Program-made: the position numbers and the translations under genes
Part shown: positions 5,680 through 57,644 of the stretch, one piece after another
How the letters are laid out: each line of letters starts with the position of its first letter
How positions within the stretch are numbered: the stretch's first letter is position 1
The notes under the pieces: generated by a model
What the model saw: the letters and a program-made list of their open reading frames with translations, nothing else
The model's database searches: none
Told to the model about the DNA's origin: nothing
Source: Spirochaetales bacterium
Lineage (GTDB): Bacteria > Spirochaetota > Spirochaetia > UBA9216
DNA length: 64,000 nucleotides
NCBI GenBank assembly: GCA_016839055.1
Contig: JAEKNX010000004.1
Location: forward strand, 310,001-374,000
Direction of reading: 5' to 3'

Positions 5680-6671
5680 TGAAGGTTGCTAAAAACTTTA
5701 AAACACTTATGCAGAAACGTGAGGTAACGCTGATTATTCTTATAGTAATACTGACTGCCGTGGTAACATTCCGTGCTCCGGGCTTCATTAAAATTAATAA
5801 TATTTCAAGGATACTGAACGATACGTCAATACTGATGATTGTCGCAATAGGGCAGTTCTTTGTTATTCTCACCGGCGGCATTGATCTGTCGGTGGGTTCG
5901 ATAATAGCTTTTTCAGGAATGGCTGCATCGATGATGAACCAGTATAACCCCGCCCTGCCGGTAGTCCTGGTCCTGCTTGCAGGAATTGTTATCGGAGCAG
6001 TGCTTGGCGCTATAAATGGCGTCCTCGTTACATTCGGAAAGGTACCGCCTATTATTACAACCCTCGGCACAATGAGTATCTACCGTGGGTTCACCTTTGT
6101 CCTGAGCCGGGGCCAATGGGTTACCGCGCATGAGATGTCTGAGAATTATATGAATATCCCGCATGGTCATTTTATTGGTATATCAAATCTAATCTGGTCT
6201 GCGGTGATAGTAGTAGTGTTAACTTATTATTTCAGCAAATACACACGTTCGGGTCGGGAGGTTTATGCAATTGGCGGAAATAAAACTGCGGCGCATTTTG
6301 TTGGTGTAAGCAAACCCAAGGTTGATATGATAATCTTCAGCCTGAGCGGACTCCTTTGCGGGCTTGCCGGTGTCATGTGGACGGCCCGCTACGCGGCTGC
6401 CGTTAACGAAACGGCAGCCGGATTCGAGCTGCAGACGGTGGCCGCCTGTGTTCTGGGCGGAGTTAGTGTGGCAGGAGGTTCGGGCGGGATTCCCGGTGTA
6501 GTTCTCGGGGCCCTGTTTCTCGGAATAATCAACAATGCGCTTCCTGTAGTAAATCTCTCCCCGTTTTTCCAGATGTTCATTCAGGGTGTGGTTGTTCTAT
6601 TAGCAATGTTTGTAAATACATTGATGGGTAAACGCCAGGAAAAGTCTGTGCTTAAAAGGAGATGCAGTTGA
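5679..6671 (+). CDS. Sugar ABC transporter permease, RbsC family (first)
   Basis: Integral membrane component of the importer. It is a 330-residue BPD_transp_2 protein with about 8-9 hydrophobic helices, the family motif GGIDLSVGSIIAFSGM near residue 65, and GREVYAIGGNKTAAHFVGV in the cytoplasmic loop that contacts the ATPase. Start and stop both overlap neighbouring genes (TGATG at 5677 and 6669). It would pair with the second permease as a heterodimer, as in the RhaSTPQ importer of rhizobia. Confidence 0.92.
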
Positions 6672-7720
6672 TGGGCGTTACAACACATAATAATAACAGC
6701 CTTGTGGAGACATCCAGGTTTATAAACGAGACAGGCCTGAAAGAACGATTTGGGAAATTAATAATACAATGGGAAGTAATTCTTGTTCTAATGTTTCTCT
6801 TTGAGATCATACTGTTCAGCAATATTTCTCCCTATTTTCTCGATTACTTTAATCTGATGAATGCAACCTTCACCTTCATGGAAAAGGCGATACTTGCTCT
6901 TCCGATGATATTTGTAATCATGTCGGGCGATATCGATATTTCGGTAGCCGCTATTATCGCGCTCTGTTCATTTTCGATGGGCTATGCCGCGGCAGCCGGA
7001 GTCGGGGCCGCGGGGCTTGTTGTAACAGGCCTCGCAGTTGGTACGGCTGCCGGCGCGTTTAACGGTTTTTTCATTACACGTTTCGGAATGCCGGCAATAG
7101 CGGTAACACTTGCGTCCTCTTCTCTGTTTCGGGGAGTATCACAGGCGGTGCTCGAAGATCAGGCATACACTAAATATCCGGATGCATTCGCTTACTTCGG
7201 CCAAGGTTATGTAGGTGATTCGGTTATTCCCTTTGAACTACTGCTGTTTGTTATACTCGCGACAGTTATGGGGTACATCCTCCATAAAACCACCTATGGT
7301 CGTAAACTGTATGCGATAGGCAATTCAGAATCGGCCGCGCGCTTTTCCGGCGTAAGGGTTAACAGAATCCGGATGATGAATTTTATGCTCAACGGCTTGT
7401 TCGCCGGCATCTCGGCTGTCCTCCTTACCTCTCGAATAGGCAGTACCAGGCCGAATATTGCGCTGGGGTTTGAACTTGAGGCAATCACACTCGTGGTCCT
7501 CGGCGGTGTATCAATCAGCGGTGGAAAGGGGAACATTTTCGGTGTTGTTCTTGCTGTATTTTTCATCGGCTACCTAAAGTTTGGAATGGGGCTGATGATG
7601 CTGTCGGCCAAGGTAATGATTATCACCACGGGCTTGCTGCTTATTATTGCAGTTCTGCTGCCGGGAGTCCTTGATACAATCAAAGGGCGTCGGAAACTTG
7701 CCAGACAGCAGATGGAGTAA
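6671..7720 (+). CDS. Sugar ABC transporter permease, RbsC family (second)
   Basis: Second membrane subunit of the same importer. Family motifs include SGDIDISVAAIIALCSFSMG and GRKLYAIGNSESAARFSGV. An in-frame ATG at 6662 touches the ribosome binding site AAAGGAG (6655-6661), so ATG 6671, nine bases from that site and overlapping the upstream stop as TGATG, is preferred; this gives 349 residues. The gene ends immediately before a tandem hairpin repeat that separates it from the mutarotase gene. Confidence 0.92.
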   Translation: MGVTTHNNNSLVETSRFINETGLKERFGKLIIQWEVILVLMFLFEIILFSNISPYFLDYFNLMNATFTFMEKAILALPMIFVIMSGDIDISVAAIIALCSFSMGYAAAAGVGAAGLVVTGLAVGTAAGAFNGFFITRFGMPAIAVTLASSSLFRGVSQAVLEDQAYTKYPDAFAYFGQGYVGDSVIPFELLLFVILATVMGYILHKTTYGRKLYAIGNSESAARFSGVRVNRIRMMNFMLNGLFAGISAVLLTSRIGSTRPNIALGFELEAITLVVLGGVSISGGKGNIFGVVLAVFFIGYLKFGMGLMMLSAKVMIITTGLLLIIAVLLPGVLDTIKGRRKLARQQME

Positions 7721-7918
7721 TCAAATTGAACGTCCCTGTTCAATTTGATTTTGGAGTTTGAAAGTTTTACTTTTCAAACTCCAACTGGGAAACTCCCTGC
7801 CGTCCCTGGCAGGCGCAGCAGATGTAGGTGTCAAATTGAACTTCCCTGTCCAATTTGATTCTGGAGTTTGAAAGTTTTTCAAACTTCGACATGGAAACTC
7901 CCTGCCGTCCCTGGCAGG
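7721..7918 (+). repeat. Two tandem copies of a three-hairpin intergenic module
   Basis: Copy 1 (7721-7813) and copy 2 (7831-7918) are near-identical and each holds three inverted repeats in order. H1 has CAAATTGAAC arms with loop GTCCCT (7722-7747) or TTCCCT (7832-7857, one mismatch in the stem). H2 is a long GGAGTTTGAAA/TTTCAAACTCC-type stem (7751-7784 and 7863-7886). H3 is CCTGCC-GTCCCT-GGCAGG (7796-7813 and 7901-7918). The second H3 ends 7 bases before the AGGTGA ribosome binding site of the mutarotase gene. Related elements occur at 8263, 16431 and 56268. No coding potential is apparent. Confidence 0.85.
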
Positions 7919-7938
7919 AGATGAGAGGTGAAGTGAGA

Positions 7939-8259
7939 ATGACGATACAGAGGCTTGCATTTAAGATGAAGATAAAACCCGGTACGGCCGCGGAATACAA
8001 GAAGCGGCATGATGAGATCTGGCCCGAGCTGGTGGGCTTACTGAAAGGCGCCGGGGTTTCCGATTATTCGATCTTCTTCGATGAAGACACAAATACTCTC
8101 TTTGCCGTCCAGAAGGTGGAGGGTGAGGGCGGCAGTCAGGATCTCGGAACAAACCCGATTATTAAAAAGTGGTGGAAGTATATGGCGGATATTATGGAAG
8201 TGAATGATGATTATTCGCCGGTGAGCATTCTGCTGCCTGAAGTTTTTTACATGGAATAG
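7939..8259 (+). CDS. rhaM: L-rhamnose mutarotase
   Basis: Interconverts alpha and beta anomers of L-rhamnose so that the isomerase can use them. It is 106 residues, close to the 104 of Escherichia coli RhaM (also called RhaU or YiiL). Family features are the start MTIQRLAFKMKIKPG, the block YKKRHDEIWPELVGLLKGAG and the tail KWWKYMADIMEVN. ATG 7939 is preferred over an in-frame extension that would translate a hairpin module, because AGGTGA (7926-7931) sits 7 bases upstream. This small enzyme is the best evidence that the upstream importer carries rhamnose. Confidence 0.9.
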   Translation: MTIQRLAFKMKIKPGTAAEYKKRHDEIWPELVGLLKGAGVSDYSIFFDEDTNTLFAVQKVEGEGGSQDLGTNPIIKKWWKYMADIMEVNDDYSPVSILLPEVFYME

Positions 8260-8262
8260 TGA

Positions 8263-8315
8263 AAAATTGAACATCAGTGTTCAATTTTATTAAGAAACCC
8301 ATCGTCTATGGTGGG
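8263..8315 (+). repeat. Shortened hairpin module (H1 and H3 only)
   Basis: H1 is a perfect 10-base stem, AAAATTGAAC, with loop ATCAGT (8263-8288). H3 is CCCATC-GTCTAT-GGTGGG (8298-8315) with one T-G pair. The long middle hairpin of the full module is absent. It fills the gap between rhaM and the URO-D gene, just upstream of that gene's GGGAGTAGGG ribosome binding region. Confidence 0.7.
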
Positions 8316-8336
8316 CATTTACGGGAGTAGGGATAA

Positions 8337-9428
8337 ATGACATCAAGAGAGAGGGTACTTACAGCATTAGGAAAGATTGAAGGTTTGCCTGACCGGCCGC
8401 CTCTGCAGTTTGATCTATGCCGAAAACTGATAGAAGACTTCGGAGAGAAGCTCGGAATAGCTCCGGATTATTCATTATCATATTATGAAGATTTGACATA
8501 CAGAATATCAGCAAATGATATAAGAACTGCCATCGGCAGTGATGTTGTCGTTGTGGGCGGAACGGTTAGGGAGGGGTTTGTACCTGAGCCCGTAGCTGAG
8601 AACATTGTCCGTAATGAGTTCGGAATGGCGATGAAGCCCACCGAACTTTATATGGAGGTTGTTGAATGTCCGCTTTCTGAGGCGTTTGCCGACGGAGACA
8701 TTGATGATTACGCCTTCCCTGATGCTTATGCTGAGGGAAGGTTTGAAAAGGCTGCTCGTGATATTGAAAAGTACAAGGGCAGTCATTTTATAATCGGTGA
8801 CTGTGAGCTTTCCATCTTTGAGCTGGCCTGGCACCTTAGCGGGATGGAAAAATACCTGCTGTCATTCGCCCTAGGTGACTCATGGGTTGAAAAACTTAAC
8901 GACAAGGTTGAGGCATGGACCACGGATATGGCTATGCAGCTTGTAGAACTTGGAGTAGATGCTGTCTGGTTAGGCGAGGACCTTGGAACCCAGATGTCTA
9001 TGCTTATTTCGCCCGAAATGTGGCGTGAGCGCTTCAAACCCAGATATGAGCGGATGATTGAAAAGCTGAAAATCGCCAATCCTGAGCTGCTGATAATCAT
9101 GCACTCGGACGGTGCGGTGGCTCCGCTAATAGATGATTTTATCGAAATGGGAATAGAGATTTACAATCCTGTTCAGCCGAACGTTCCGGGTTCTGATCCC
9201 TCAGAACTAAAAGCGAAGTACGGTGGCCGCATCAACTTCTTCGGAGGAATCGACCAACAGGAACTTCTTCCCTCCGGGAATTTAGACGAATTGAAGAAAG
9301 AAATCAAAATGAGGGCTCGGATTCTCGGCGAAGGGGGCGGATATCTCATGGCTCCGGCGCATATAATACAGGCAGATACTTCACCTGATACTGTGGAGGC
9401 TATGGTGAAGATAATTCAGGAACTATAA
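8337..9428 (+). CDS. Uroporphyrinogen decarboxylase (URO-D) family protein, function unknown
   Basis: A 363-residue TIM-barrel protein of the broad URO-D/MtaA family. Seen are the N-terminal TSRERVLTALGKIEGLPDRPP, the core MHSDGAVAPLIDDFIEMGIE and INFFGGIDQQELLP followed by YLMAPAHIIQ. True haem-pathway HemE proteins begin differently and sit with hem genes, so a haem role is unlikely. Members of this group often lie beside sugar importers in anaerobes, and some relatives are corrinoid methyltransferases. Its role in the rhamnose locus is not known. It is convergent with the AraC-type gene, 22 bases apart. Confidence 0.82.
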   Translation: MTSRERVLTALGKIEGLPDRPPLQFDLCRKLIEDFGEKLGIAPDYSLSYYEDLTYRISANDIRTAIGSDVVVVGGTVREGFVPEPVAENIVRNEFGMAMKPTELYMEVVECPLSEAFADGDIDDYAFPDAYAEGRFEKAARDIEKYKGSHFIIGDCELSIFELAWHLSGMEKYLLSFALGDSWVEKLNDKVEAWTTDMAMQLVELGVDAVWLGEDLGTQMSMLISPEMWRERFKPRYERMIEKLKIANPELLIIMHSDGAVAPLIDDFIEMGIEIYNPVQPNVPGSDPSELKAKYGGRINFFGGIDQQELLPSGNLDELKKEIKMRARILGEGGGYLMAPAHIIQADTSPDTVEAMVKIIQEL

Positions 9429-15082: not shown

Positions 15083-16441
15083 ATGTTTGATCTTATTGTA
15101 GTCGGCGCGGGACCCGCGGGTTATATTGCGGCCGAACGTGCAGGGCATATGGGAAAGAAAGTCCTCCTGGTCGAGCGCGAAGAACTCGGCGGCGTCTGTA
15201 CCAATCACGGATGCATACCGACGAAGAGCCTTCTGAATGCCGCGAAGCATTTTGTATATGGAAAAGAATCTGCACGCTTCGGTGTCCATTTCGACAATCC
15301 CAGGTTTAATTTCACCGAGGCAATGGCCTGGAAGAATGAAACTGTCCAGACTCTCCGTAAGGGAATTGCCTTTCTAATGAAGCAGGGCAAGGTTGAGGTT
15401 GTAAAAGGCCAGGCCTCCTTTCCGGGAGGAAAGAAGGTCGAAGTGGGCGGCGTGATCTATGAAGGCTCAAACCTGCTTCTTGCCACGGGCTCAGAAGCCT
15501 TTGTTCCGCCCATCCCCGGGGCTGACGGCGCCAATGTTGTAACTAACAGAGAAATTCTCAGCCTCGAGAAACTCCCTTCAAAGCTTGCCGTCATCGGCGG
15601 AGGCGTAATAGGGGTTGAGTTCGCATCCTTTTTCAGCAGTGTCGGCGTAGAGGTACATGTTATCGAGATGATGGATGAAATCTGCCCGATGATGGACACT
15701 GAGGCCGCGGGTCTTCTTCGAAAGAAGATGAGTGCTGTAGATTTCAAGCTCGGTGCCAAGGTTACTGAAGTTACACCTAGAGGTGTGAAGTACGAGAAGG
15801 CCGGAGCTGAGGAATTTATCGAGGCCGACCTTGTTTTGATGTCGGTTGGAAGACGGCCGATCACCTCAGGGCTCGAGGCTCTCGGCCTCGATATAAGCCG
15901 GCAGGGAGTCGTAGTAGATGAGCGGATGCGGACCAATCTACCCGGCGTCTACGCCGCGGGAGATGTGACGGGTAAGTCTCTTCTTGCGCACTCGGCTTCG
16001 CGAATGGCCGAGGTTGCCGTAATGAATATGTTCGGCAGCGGAAGCCAAGCGGCAAACGCCGGGGAGGCAATCGCCGTCATGCGCTATAACGCAGTGCCCT
16101 GGGCTGTTTACACTCTGCCCGAGGTCGCCGGATGCGGGATGACCGAGGCCGAAGCGAAGGAAGCCGGATATCGCTTTAAGTCGGCATCGATGCCGATGAG
16201 GGCTAACGGCCGCTTTCTCGCCGAGCATGGTAAGGATGCCGGTTTCTGCAAGGTGATCTCTGATGAGGACACCGGGTTAATTCTCGGCGTGCACATGATA
16301 GGCGCGGTCTGCTCCGAGATGATAGGGACAGCCGCGGTCTTTATTGAAGCCGAACTCAGGGTACAGGACATCATTGAGATTATCTTCCCTCATCCGTCCG
16401 TATCTGAAATTATAAAAGACGTATGCTGGAATATCATTTGA
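15083..16441 (+). CDS. lpd: Dihydrolipoamide dehydrogenase (E3)
   Basis: Reoxidises the E2 lipoyl groups and reduces NAD. The FAD motif VGAGPAG is at 7-13, the redox disulfide Cys39/Cys44 in CTNHGCIPTK, the NAD motif VIGGGVIGVEFASFF in the middle, and FPHPSVSE near the C-terminus carries the catalytic His-Glu pair. ATG 15083 follows AAAAAGGAG, so it is preferred over an in-frame start at 15044 inside the E2 gene; this gives 452 residues. The final codons and stop form one arm of a hairpin belonging to the module at 16431. Confidence 0.95.
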   Translation: MFDLIVVGAGPAGYIAAERAGHMGKKVLLVEREELGGVCTNHGCIPTKSLLNAAKHFVYGKESARFGVHFDNPRFNFTEAMAWKNETVQTLRKGIAFLMKQGKVEVVKGQASFPGGKKVEVGGVIYEGSNLLLATGSEAFVPPIPGADGANVVTNREILSLEKLPSKLAVIGGGVIGVEFASFFSSVGVEVHVIEMMDEICPMMDTEAAGLLRKKMSAVDFKLGAKVTEVTPRGVKYEKAGAEEFIEADLVLMSVGRRPITSGLEALGLDISRQGVVVDERMRTNLPGVYAAGDVTGKSLLAHSASRMAEVAVMNMFGSGSQAANAGEAIAVMRYNAVPWAVYTLPEVAGCGMTEAEAKEAGYRFKSASMPMRANGRFLAEHGKDAGFCKVISDEDTGLILGVHMIGAVCSEMIGTAAVFIEAELRVQDIIEIIFPHPSVSEIIKDVCWNII

Positions 16442-16522
16442 CCTCCATGTCAAATGATATTTTGAAGAATTGAAAGCGAGCTTCCAATTCTTCATCCATG
16501 ATTACCCGCCTTCCATGGCGGG
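16431..16522 (+). repeat. Three-hairpin intergenic module, single copy, overlapping the lpd stop codon
   Basis: H1 has 12-base arms ATATCATTTGAC with loop CTCCAT (16431-16460), and its left arm contains the lpd stop. H2 spans 16464-16493 with GAAGAATTG/CAATTCTTC arms. H3 is CCCGCC-TTCCAT-GGCGGG (16505-16522). The order, spacing and loop pattern match the tandem modules at 7721. AGGAGTGAAAT and the E1 start follow directly. Confidence 0.8.
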
Positions 16523-16544
16523 AAAAGAATATTAGGAGTGAAAT

Positions 16545-56251: not shown

Positions 56252-56267
56252 TTATTACTCCTAATAT

Positions 56268-56543
56268 CCCGCCACAGATGGCGGGTGAATTAAGTGAAGT
56301 TTGAAAGGCTCTGCCTTCAAACTTCAGAAAAACCTTGCCATGGAAGGTCGTAGATTAACCCCGCCATGGATGGCGGGTGAATGAAGCGAAGTTTGAAAGG
56401 CTCTGCCTTTAAACTTCAGAAAGAAATTGGACATGGAAGGTCTTATATTAACCCGCCACGGAGGGCGGGCAAACCAGGGCGAAGTATTAAAAGTTTTGCT
56501 TTTAATACTTCTAAATGAAATTGAACAAGGATGTTCAATTTCA
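56268..56543 (-). repeat. Array of hairpin modules between aglG and gtfA
   Basis: Read on the minus strand, a full module comes first: H1 with arms TGAAATTGAAC (56543-56516), H2 (56511-56481, 13-base stem) and H3 (56469-56452). Two further H2-H3 units follow (56417-56388 with 56377-56360, and 56325-56296 with 56285-56268), each preceded by a decayed H1 that keeps a TTCCAT centre. H3 stems are all CCCGCC/GGCGGG with sense loops CTCCGT, ATCCAT and ATCTGT; the intact H1 loop is ATCCTT. The last H3 ends 16 bases before the gtfA start, with AGGAGT between. These are the same kind of elements as at 7721, 8263 and 16431. Confidence 0.85.
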
Positions 56544-57644
56544 TTACCCCTTAACAGAGCCTGCTGTGAGCCCTCGAACGAAAAATCGCTGGAGGCCGAA
56601 GAATACAGCAATGGGAATAATCATGCTCAGGAAGGCACCGGCTGTCAGCAGATGCCAGTCTTGTCCCTTCTCTCCTACCATGGCGGCAAGGGCGCTGGTG
56701 ACAACCCTGTTTTTATCTCCAAGAAAGACAAGTGCCACAAGGTAATCGTTCCAGACCCAGAGAAACTGGAATATGGCAAAGCTTGCGAGTGCCGGAATTG
56801 AAAGCGGCAGAACCAGTTTGACAAAGGTGACAAATGGAGTTGCCCCGTCTAGGTATGCCGACTCGAAGATATCGCGCGGGAGATTGCTTATATAATTATA
56901 CAGAAGATAGATCGCCAGAGGCAGGCCGAAGCTTGTGTGGGCAAGCCACATACCTACAAAGGTTCCGTTCAGCCCCCATTTTGTAAAATCTCTCAGGATT
57001 GGAATCAGGGCAATCTGGAGAGGGACTACCAGGAGGGCTACAACGATGATGAATAGTGGTTTTCGTCCGGGGAATTCCATCCAGGAGAAGGCGTAGGCGG
57101 CAAAGGCCGCAATCAGGATCGGGATGATCGTAGCCGGGATGCTTACGGCAATAGAGTTTAGTACCGCGTCGGAGAAATTATTCCCCTGGCGGGAGATCGT
57201 ATTTCCTTCGCCGTCGGTGTATTCTATTTCTCCCGCGCTCAGGACGTCCCTGTAATTCTGCAGGTTCAGGTTAGCCCCGAATCCTATCCATTTTTCTTCA
57301 AAGATCTCAACCTTGCGGGTACGCTTATTTCCGTACCATTTTAAGGTTCGCCCTTCCTCAACTTCAATTCCGTTGCGCCATTCGTTAAATGAGGCTGTAA
57401 CTCCTTCAATCTCAATCGGCTGATCCGGATCAAGCTCAGAGGGCATCTCCATTTCTCCGGTTTTGACGAAGTCTTTATGAGGCAGAACTGTCCACCAGCC
57501 CGAACTGTAGATGTCTCTCGAATCACGGAAAGAGGTTATGAAAACACCTAGGGTCGGAACTGTCCATAGTACTACAATGACTATAAGGACGATGCCTATC
57601 AGAGGATTTGACTTGCTTCTATTCAATTTGATTTTTTTCCTCAT
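56544..57644 (-). CDS. aglG: Sugar ABC permease, AglG/MalG-like
   Basis: Inner-membrane subunit of an alpha-glucoside importer, 366 residues. A first helix (about 14-35) is followed by a large soluble insert of roughly 120 residues before the permease core, a trait I associate with AglG. The core includes the EAA loop as ESAYLDGATPFVTFVKLVLP. It overlaps aglF by 4 bases. Its stop abuts the hairpin array. The substrate assignment rests on this architecture and the neighbouring sucrose phosphorylase-family gene. Confidence 0.87.
   Translation of the reverse strand: MRKKIKLNRSKSNPLIGIVLIVIVVLWTVPTLGVFITSFRDSRDIYSSGWWTVLPHKDFVKTGEMEMPSELDPDQPIEIEGVTASFNEWRNGIEVEEGRTLKWYGNKRTRKVEIFEEKWIGFGANLNLQNYRDVLSAGEIEYTDGEGNTISRQGNNFSDAVLNSIAVSIPATIIPILIAAFAAYAFSWMEFPGRKPLFIIVVALLVVPLQIALIPILRDFTKWGLNGTFVGMWLAHTSFGLPLAIYLLYNYISNLPRDIFESAYLDGATPFVTFVKLVLPLSIPALASFAIFQFLWVWNDYLVALVFLGDKNRVVTSALAAMVGEKGQDWHLLTAGAFLSMIIPIAVFFGLQRFFVRGLTAGSVKG

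Follow-up and report, generated by a model that had tools for sequence, protein, structure and literature searches.

The 64,000-nucleotide stretch of a Spirochaetales genome analysed here (the window) carries a tandem pair of hairpin-rich units between the end of an ABC permease gene (7720) and the start of rhaM (7939), which raises the question of whether such units are terminators, regulatory RNAs or elements that spread as DNA. Positions 7715-7918 consist of two three-hairpin units, 89-91% alike, in which the hairpins H1, H2 and H3 follow each other in the same order; two direct repeats, one of 63 nt (89%) and the other of 43 nt (91%), span 7706-7918 with a period of 105-110 bp (Table 1). 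Three non-overlapping perfect stems of at least 9 bp are found in 208 nt, against a mean of 0.014 and a maximum of 1 in shuffled sequences, and the RNA folding z-score of the units is -7.0, with no shuffle equally stable; H1 and H2 of copy 2 are partly decayed. The sequence-only reading had described three ordered inverted repeats per unit, duplicated in tandem with conserved order, and this is borne out by the repeats, the shuffles and the fold; its length of about 90 bases must be corrected to about 105-110 bp, including the spacers and the repeated CAGCAGATG.

Table 1. Features of the rhaM locus and further copies of the element in the window (SD, Shine-Dalgarno sequence)
Feature	Position	Strand	Basis or remark
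ABC sugar-transport permease gene (PF02653)	6662..7720	+	ORF, Pfam
Permease stop TAA	7718-7720	+	overlaps first bases of copy 1
GGAG within CAGCAGATGGAG, presumed SD-like ancestral target, with the insertion immediately 3' of it	7714..7717	+	sequence; compare empty site TAA-AGGAG-ATG in L054
Element copy 1 (H1-H2-H3)	7715..7813	+	minus strand 57.9 bits to Rfam TD-2
Copy 1 H1, 13-bp stem arms, loop GTCCCT	7719..7750	+	
Copy 1 H2, 13-bp stem TTGGAGTTTGAAA..TTTCAAACTCCAA	7751..7784	+	
Copy 1 H3, CCTGCC-GTCCCT-GGCAGG	7796..7813	+	
CAGCAGATG, repeat of permease gene 3' end (first copy 7706-7714)	7816..7824	+	trace of tandem duplication
Element copy 2	7824..7918	+	minus strand 43.6 bits to TD-2, under cut-off
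Copy 2 hairpins	H1 7831-7860, H2 7864-7886, H3 7901-7918	+	
GAGGTG, probable SD of rhaM	7925..7930	+	sequence
rhaM, L-rhamnose mutarotase (PF05336), ATG start	7939..8259	+	
Degenerate unit after rhaM, without H2	8263..8327	+	24.9 bits, E 6e-4
Parts of degenerate unit	H1 8263-8288, H3-like 8298-8315		then GGGAG before URO-D-family gene at 8337
Further copy, between Pyr_redox_2 gene and E1_dh/transketolase-domain gene	16423..16526	+	ATTAGGAG 3' of copy
56 kb array, third (3'-most) unit	56264..56366	-	ATATTAGGAG 3' of unit
56 kb array, middle unit	56356..56452	-	H1 stem short, TTCCAT loop kept
56 kb array, first unit	56448..56552	-	42.9 bits to TD-2 on plus strand

Beyond the rhaM region the window holds four more copies, one at 16423-16526, whose ortholog is present in genome G004, and three in a tandem array on the minus strand (56264-56552) between a BPD_transp_1 permease gene and an alpha-amylase-like gene. 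A covariance model of the plus strand, built from a uniform subset of eleven congeneric copies (a first alignment with mixed H1 lengths gave no consensus for H1 and H3), returns 53 hits at E<=0.01 in this genome, corresponding to about 50 further copies, and 21, 29, 22 and 74 hits in four congeners. Hits are found in 13 of 148 Spirochaetia genomes, the genomes compared being mostly MAGs; the carriers are all five of the own genus, a second genus of the same family, a single genome from a different family and six of family f24. Tandem arrays (two units at rhaM, three in C3 and three at 56 kb) show local duplication. The sequence-only reading had seen in the units more than a simple terminator, namely a discrete element that is selected or mobile, an idea that was to fall if the genome held no further copies and relatives no structure-preserving substitutions; the copies listed above and the many such substitutions between relatives support it. 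Clan membership, SD-specific insertion in one orientation and a compensation of the stems that does not look like that of RNA are beyond what it foresaw. In one orthologous pair (L234:1240-1307 and L253:1001-1095) the copy of G000 is without H2 and that of G004 has it, so that a clean loss of H2 can occur; at L215:1501-1628, L220:1501-1616 and L210:1501-1618 an extra small GGTGCTGCTTCGCAGTCC-type hairpin lies inside the H3 loop, as though a second palindrome had inserted.

In Rfam, the rhaM units match TD-2 (RF03162, clan CL00124) on the minus strand. With a gathering cut-off of 48.7, copy 1 passes (57.9 bits) and copy 2 (43.6) and a 56 kb copy (42.9) fall short; no match to TD-1 (RF03155) is found in the window at E<=1, overlapping matches within the clan being reduced to the best one. 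Judged by sequence and structure, the units are members of the TD-1/TD-2 clan. Of the relatives searched, two Treponema-like f24 genomes, G029 and G049, each a single 2.8 Mb contig, have the most TD-2; 53 and 25 TD-2 matches are found in two Treponema-like genomes. The label of TD-2 as a small RNA and the strand assigned to it are not supported in this genus, where gene orientation points to the other strand. PMC2864571 makes no mention of TD-1 or TD-2. The window also contains a molybdenum/tungsten cofactor riboswitch (RF01055, 29769-29887 on the plus strand, 75.1 bits, E 2.5e-16); weak matches to eukaryotic Rfam families were taken as chance.

Relative to genes, the element sits between the upstream stop codon and the next SD. 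Among 122 copies flanked by called genes, it is sense to the downstream gene in 114 of the 121 with a called downstream gene (binomial p about 5e-26, relatedness ignored); as genes were called mechanically, some of the seven exceptions may be miscalls. The upstream gene is likewise sense at most copies, and its stop and the element start are then usually at most about 20 nt apart; where it points away, the gap to the element is usually 55-430 nt and the element is therefore in the 5' leader. The downstream start is mostly 12-20 nt past the element, and an SD motif precedes 101 of 114 called starts. The downstream genes have no common theme, and the idea of a regulon was rejected on this ground. 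A leader peptide read from AGGAGG-A-ATGAT was rejected too, since its ATG varies (Treponema-like copies have ACG or TCG there) and these bases are part of the H1 stem; so was anti-SD pairing by the UCC loops, which extends over just 3-4 bp with variable neighbours.

Comparison of filled and empty sites yields an insertion rule: the old SD (AGGAG) is left in place, the element lies directly 3' of it and a new SD, TTTATAGGAG, closes the element. A GGAG-type motif stands left of the element in 59 of the 76 copies where the upstream stop leaves room, a frequency to be compared with about 7% by chance. For rhaM, an empty site is found in L054 (Spirochaetales SZUA-414), whose permease is 83% identical and whose permease stop is directly followed by AGGAG and the rhaM start. 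The full element is present in none of the 28 orthologous junctions read in congeners for elements of this genome; in most of these the stop or upstream gene, AGGAG and start codon are intact, one (L289) keeps an H3-like remnant, and in a few, mainly of G002, the upstream region is different or unclear. The 5' flanks of the left and right SD show a paired similarity no higher than shuffled ones, which indicates that the right SD belongs to the element and led us to reject a longer target-site duplication. TD-1-type copies of G029, compared with G049, obey the same rule; in the clearest case (169661), G029 has AATAAGGAG and then an element ending in TTTATAGGAG, where G049 has AATAAGGAGAAACAAA-ATG, the protein being 99% identical. 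Several G049 sites (L355-L368) hold short remnants, GATAAAC beside the SD or H3 alone, as though internal deletion of the element were frequent.

The best explanation of the units, to which we give a probability of about 0.7, is a small non-coding interspersed element of the TD-1/TD-2 clan that targets SDs. The element would spread as DNA, or as a DNA copy, using AGGAG as target; since it ends in its own SD, TTTATAGGAG, the downstream gene retains a ribosome-binding site, and the mRNA gains a three-hairpin spacer. At rhaM, the element would have inserted once, after the GGAG of CAGCAGATGGAG, and then been duplicated together with the last permease bases. The effect on expression would probably be mild, with neighbouring cistrons uncoupled or mRNA half-life altered. 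A point against this explanation is TD-2 proper in G029, where the left AGGAG is mostly absent and the orientation is mixed.

The upkeep of the stems bears on whether the element acts as DNA or as RNA. Seven junctions are common to G000 and G004 or G001, at six of which both flanks match and at one, L206/L263, the downstream flank; in the H1 and H3 stems of these copies 36 changes are two-sided (compensatory), 4 are one-sided and none leads to G.U. Covariation alone would here have been taken as proof of RNA. G.U and A.C pairs were compared with a count that handles both wobble types alike. An RNA folded on either strand is expected to show an excess of wobble on that strand. The 351 hairpins of 120 distinct copies contain 3415 Watson-Crick pairs, 28 G.T, 34 A.C and 54 other mismatches, whereas 30 tRNAs of the same genome, taken as control, have 53 G.U and 0 A.C (Fisher p 2e-12); thus, pairing is not kept as in folded RNA, nor does the strand modelled for TD-2 show the tolerance of G.U that a structure kept as RNA would have. 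Concerted two-sided changes, with a loop inverted now and then, are what template switching between the arms of a hairpin predicts (PMC8794818), and an inverted loop, the footprint expected of this process, is found once among 124 in the genus (L230 H3) and once in the Treponema-like set. Upkeep at the DNA level, for instance by template-switch correction of palindromes, is a better fit than selection on a folded RNA. For the SD-targeting element we infer that the perfect pairing of the stems is due mainly to processes at the DNA level, which may be template-switch correction between the arms or selection on the DNA hairpin. If this is right, comparing G.U with A.C in stems gives a simple test by which candidate RNAs can be sorted into DNA palindromes and true RNA structures.

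One alternative is that the element is a sense-strand cis-regulatory or processing RNA, that is, an mRNA insulator, an RNase site or a protein-binding leader kept by selection. Strict sense orientation, a location between the stop and the SD, stems that stay paired in orthologous copies, conserved loops, a very stable RNA fold (z -7) and the Rfam class of TD-1 speak for such an RNA; the lack of G.U excess over A.C, unlike tRNA, the unrelated downstream genes and the fact that most orthologous genes do without the element, with nothing in its place, make it rather unlikely. Pairing at the seven shared junctions has been kept over considerable divergence, which suggests constraint in situ; some copies may have a host function, and this counts against the SD-targeting element as best explanation.

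Mobility could also be of the REP/BIME type, with palindromes moved by a RAYT (Y1, HUH) transposase whose recognition site in single-stranded DNA would be a hairpin with a GGAG foot. The foot-plus-hairpin layout, the strand-specific target, the DNA-level pairing and the tandem arrays agree with this proposal, but the H1 and H3 loops are in direct and not inverted order and Y1_Tnp (PF01797) has no match in G000, G001, G002, G004, G029, G049 and G128, so that we regard it as improbable. Y1_Tnp is absent from four of the five genomes of the genus, and a RAYT/Y1 transposase was rejected as mover because it is absent from most carriers. RVT_1 is absent from three of the five; reverse transcriptase, found only in G002, G004, G006 and G128 among the genomes searched, was rejected because it has no consistent link with carriers of the element. 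No transposase or recombinase was linked to the element in the genomes searched. Separately, hairpins of the form GGAGTTTT..AAAACATCCAT, nearly identical to one another, lie close to contig ends in this genome (L023-L027) and are possibly the ends of a repeated mobile element.

The loops follow the motif NTCCNT in a single orientation (57 H1 and 66 H3 loops; 123 TCC vs 1 GGA), and in the 56 kb array they persist where the H1 stem shrank. Fixed orientation suggests that the loops are recognised by some partner; it is conserved far beyond the need of a purely selfish relic, which again counts against the SD-targeting element. On the minus strand, and only there, the loops of both H1 and H3 become ANGGAN hexaloops closed by C-G, that is, the CsrA/RsmE hexaloop C-ANGGAN-G, matching the motif (A/U)CANGGANG(U/A) quoted in PMC6692469, and CsrA is encoded in this genome. 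In line with the Rfam label of TD-2, one could thus envisage a small RNA from the minus strand, acting perhaps as a CsrA sponge, all the more as the minus strand of copy 1 is above the TD-2 cut-off and a tandem TD-2 array of G029 (L143 1588-1722) weakly matches TwoAYGGAY, a motif with AYGGAY loops (37.1 bits vs a cut-off of 43). However, such an RNA would be antisense inside operons or leaders in 114 of 121 cases, and wobble preference on the minus strand is absent; for both reasons a sponge is very doubtful. Finally, it is most improbable that the hairpins are only intercistronic terminators or attenuators, since, despite a stable G+C-rich H3 in intergenic position, no U-run directly follows H3 at rhaM, the next start is mostly close to the element, and the many copies, their modular order and the insertion rule speak against it.

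Compared with known families, the units share with TD-2 the same three hairpins in the same order and the same NTCCNT/ANGGAN loops, and copy 1 passes its gathering score; they differ in that Rfam models the minus strand as a small RNA gene, whereas in this genus the downstream gene is almost always read in the direction of the plus strand; an SD is part of the element, and most copies stay below the Rfam cut-off. TD-1, classed by Rfam as cis-regulatory, overlaps TD-2-like hairpins on the sense strand in G029, has AAAAAGTTTTTATAGGAG at its end and follows AGGAG by the same insertion rule, but differs in its 3' region (an A/T-rich hairpin). We tentatively advance, as somewhat short of an even chance, that TD-1 and TD-2 form one superfamily of DNA elements, not RNA genes, with a putative mobility system that homes to SDs and restores them on insertion. 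If this is true, two Rfam families have to be reinterpreted, one with the strand reversed, and a bacterial repeat enters operons at ribosome-binding sites yet leaves a usable one; to our knowledge, no such SD-homing, SD-restoring target specificity has been described for bacterial repeats. REP/BIME are interspersed extragenic palindromes with a short foot sequence, found in tandem clusters, and the element resembles them in all these features; it differs in its insertion at SDs inside operons, and no RAYT was found here. With respect to MITEs, AGGAG flanks both ends of the element, the right copy being element-borne, and no terminal inverted repeats are seen beyond the hairpins. BOX, RUP and SPRITE are short non-autonomous repeats that form hairpins when transcribed and are modular or tandem (PMC3049150), and the element is like them, and like ERIC and Correia, in being short, non-autonomous, hairpin-forming and modular or tandem. 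The pneumococcal repeats, however, are over-represented between convergent genes (PMC3049150), whereas the element described here lies in operons, in sense orientation, with AGGAG as target and a replacement SD at its end.
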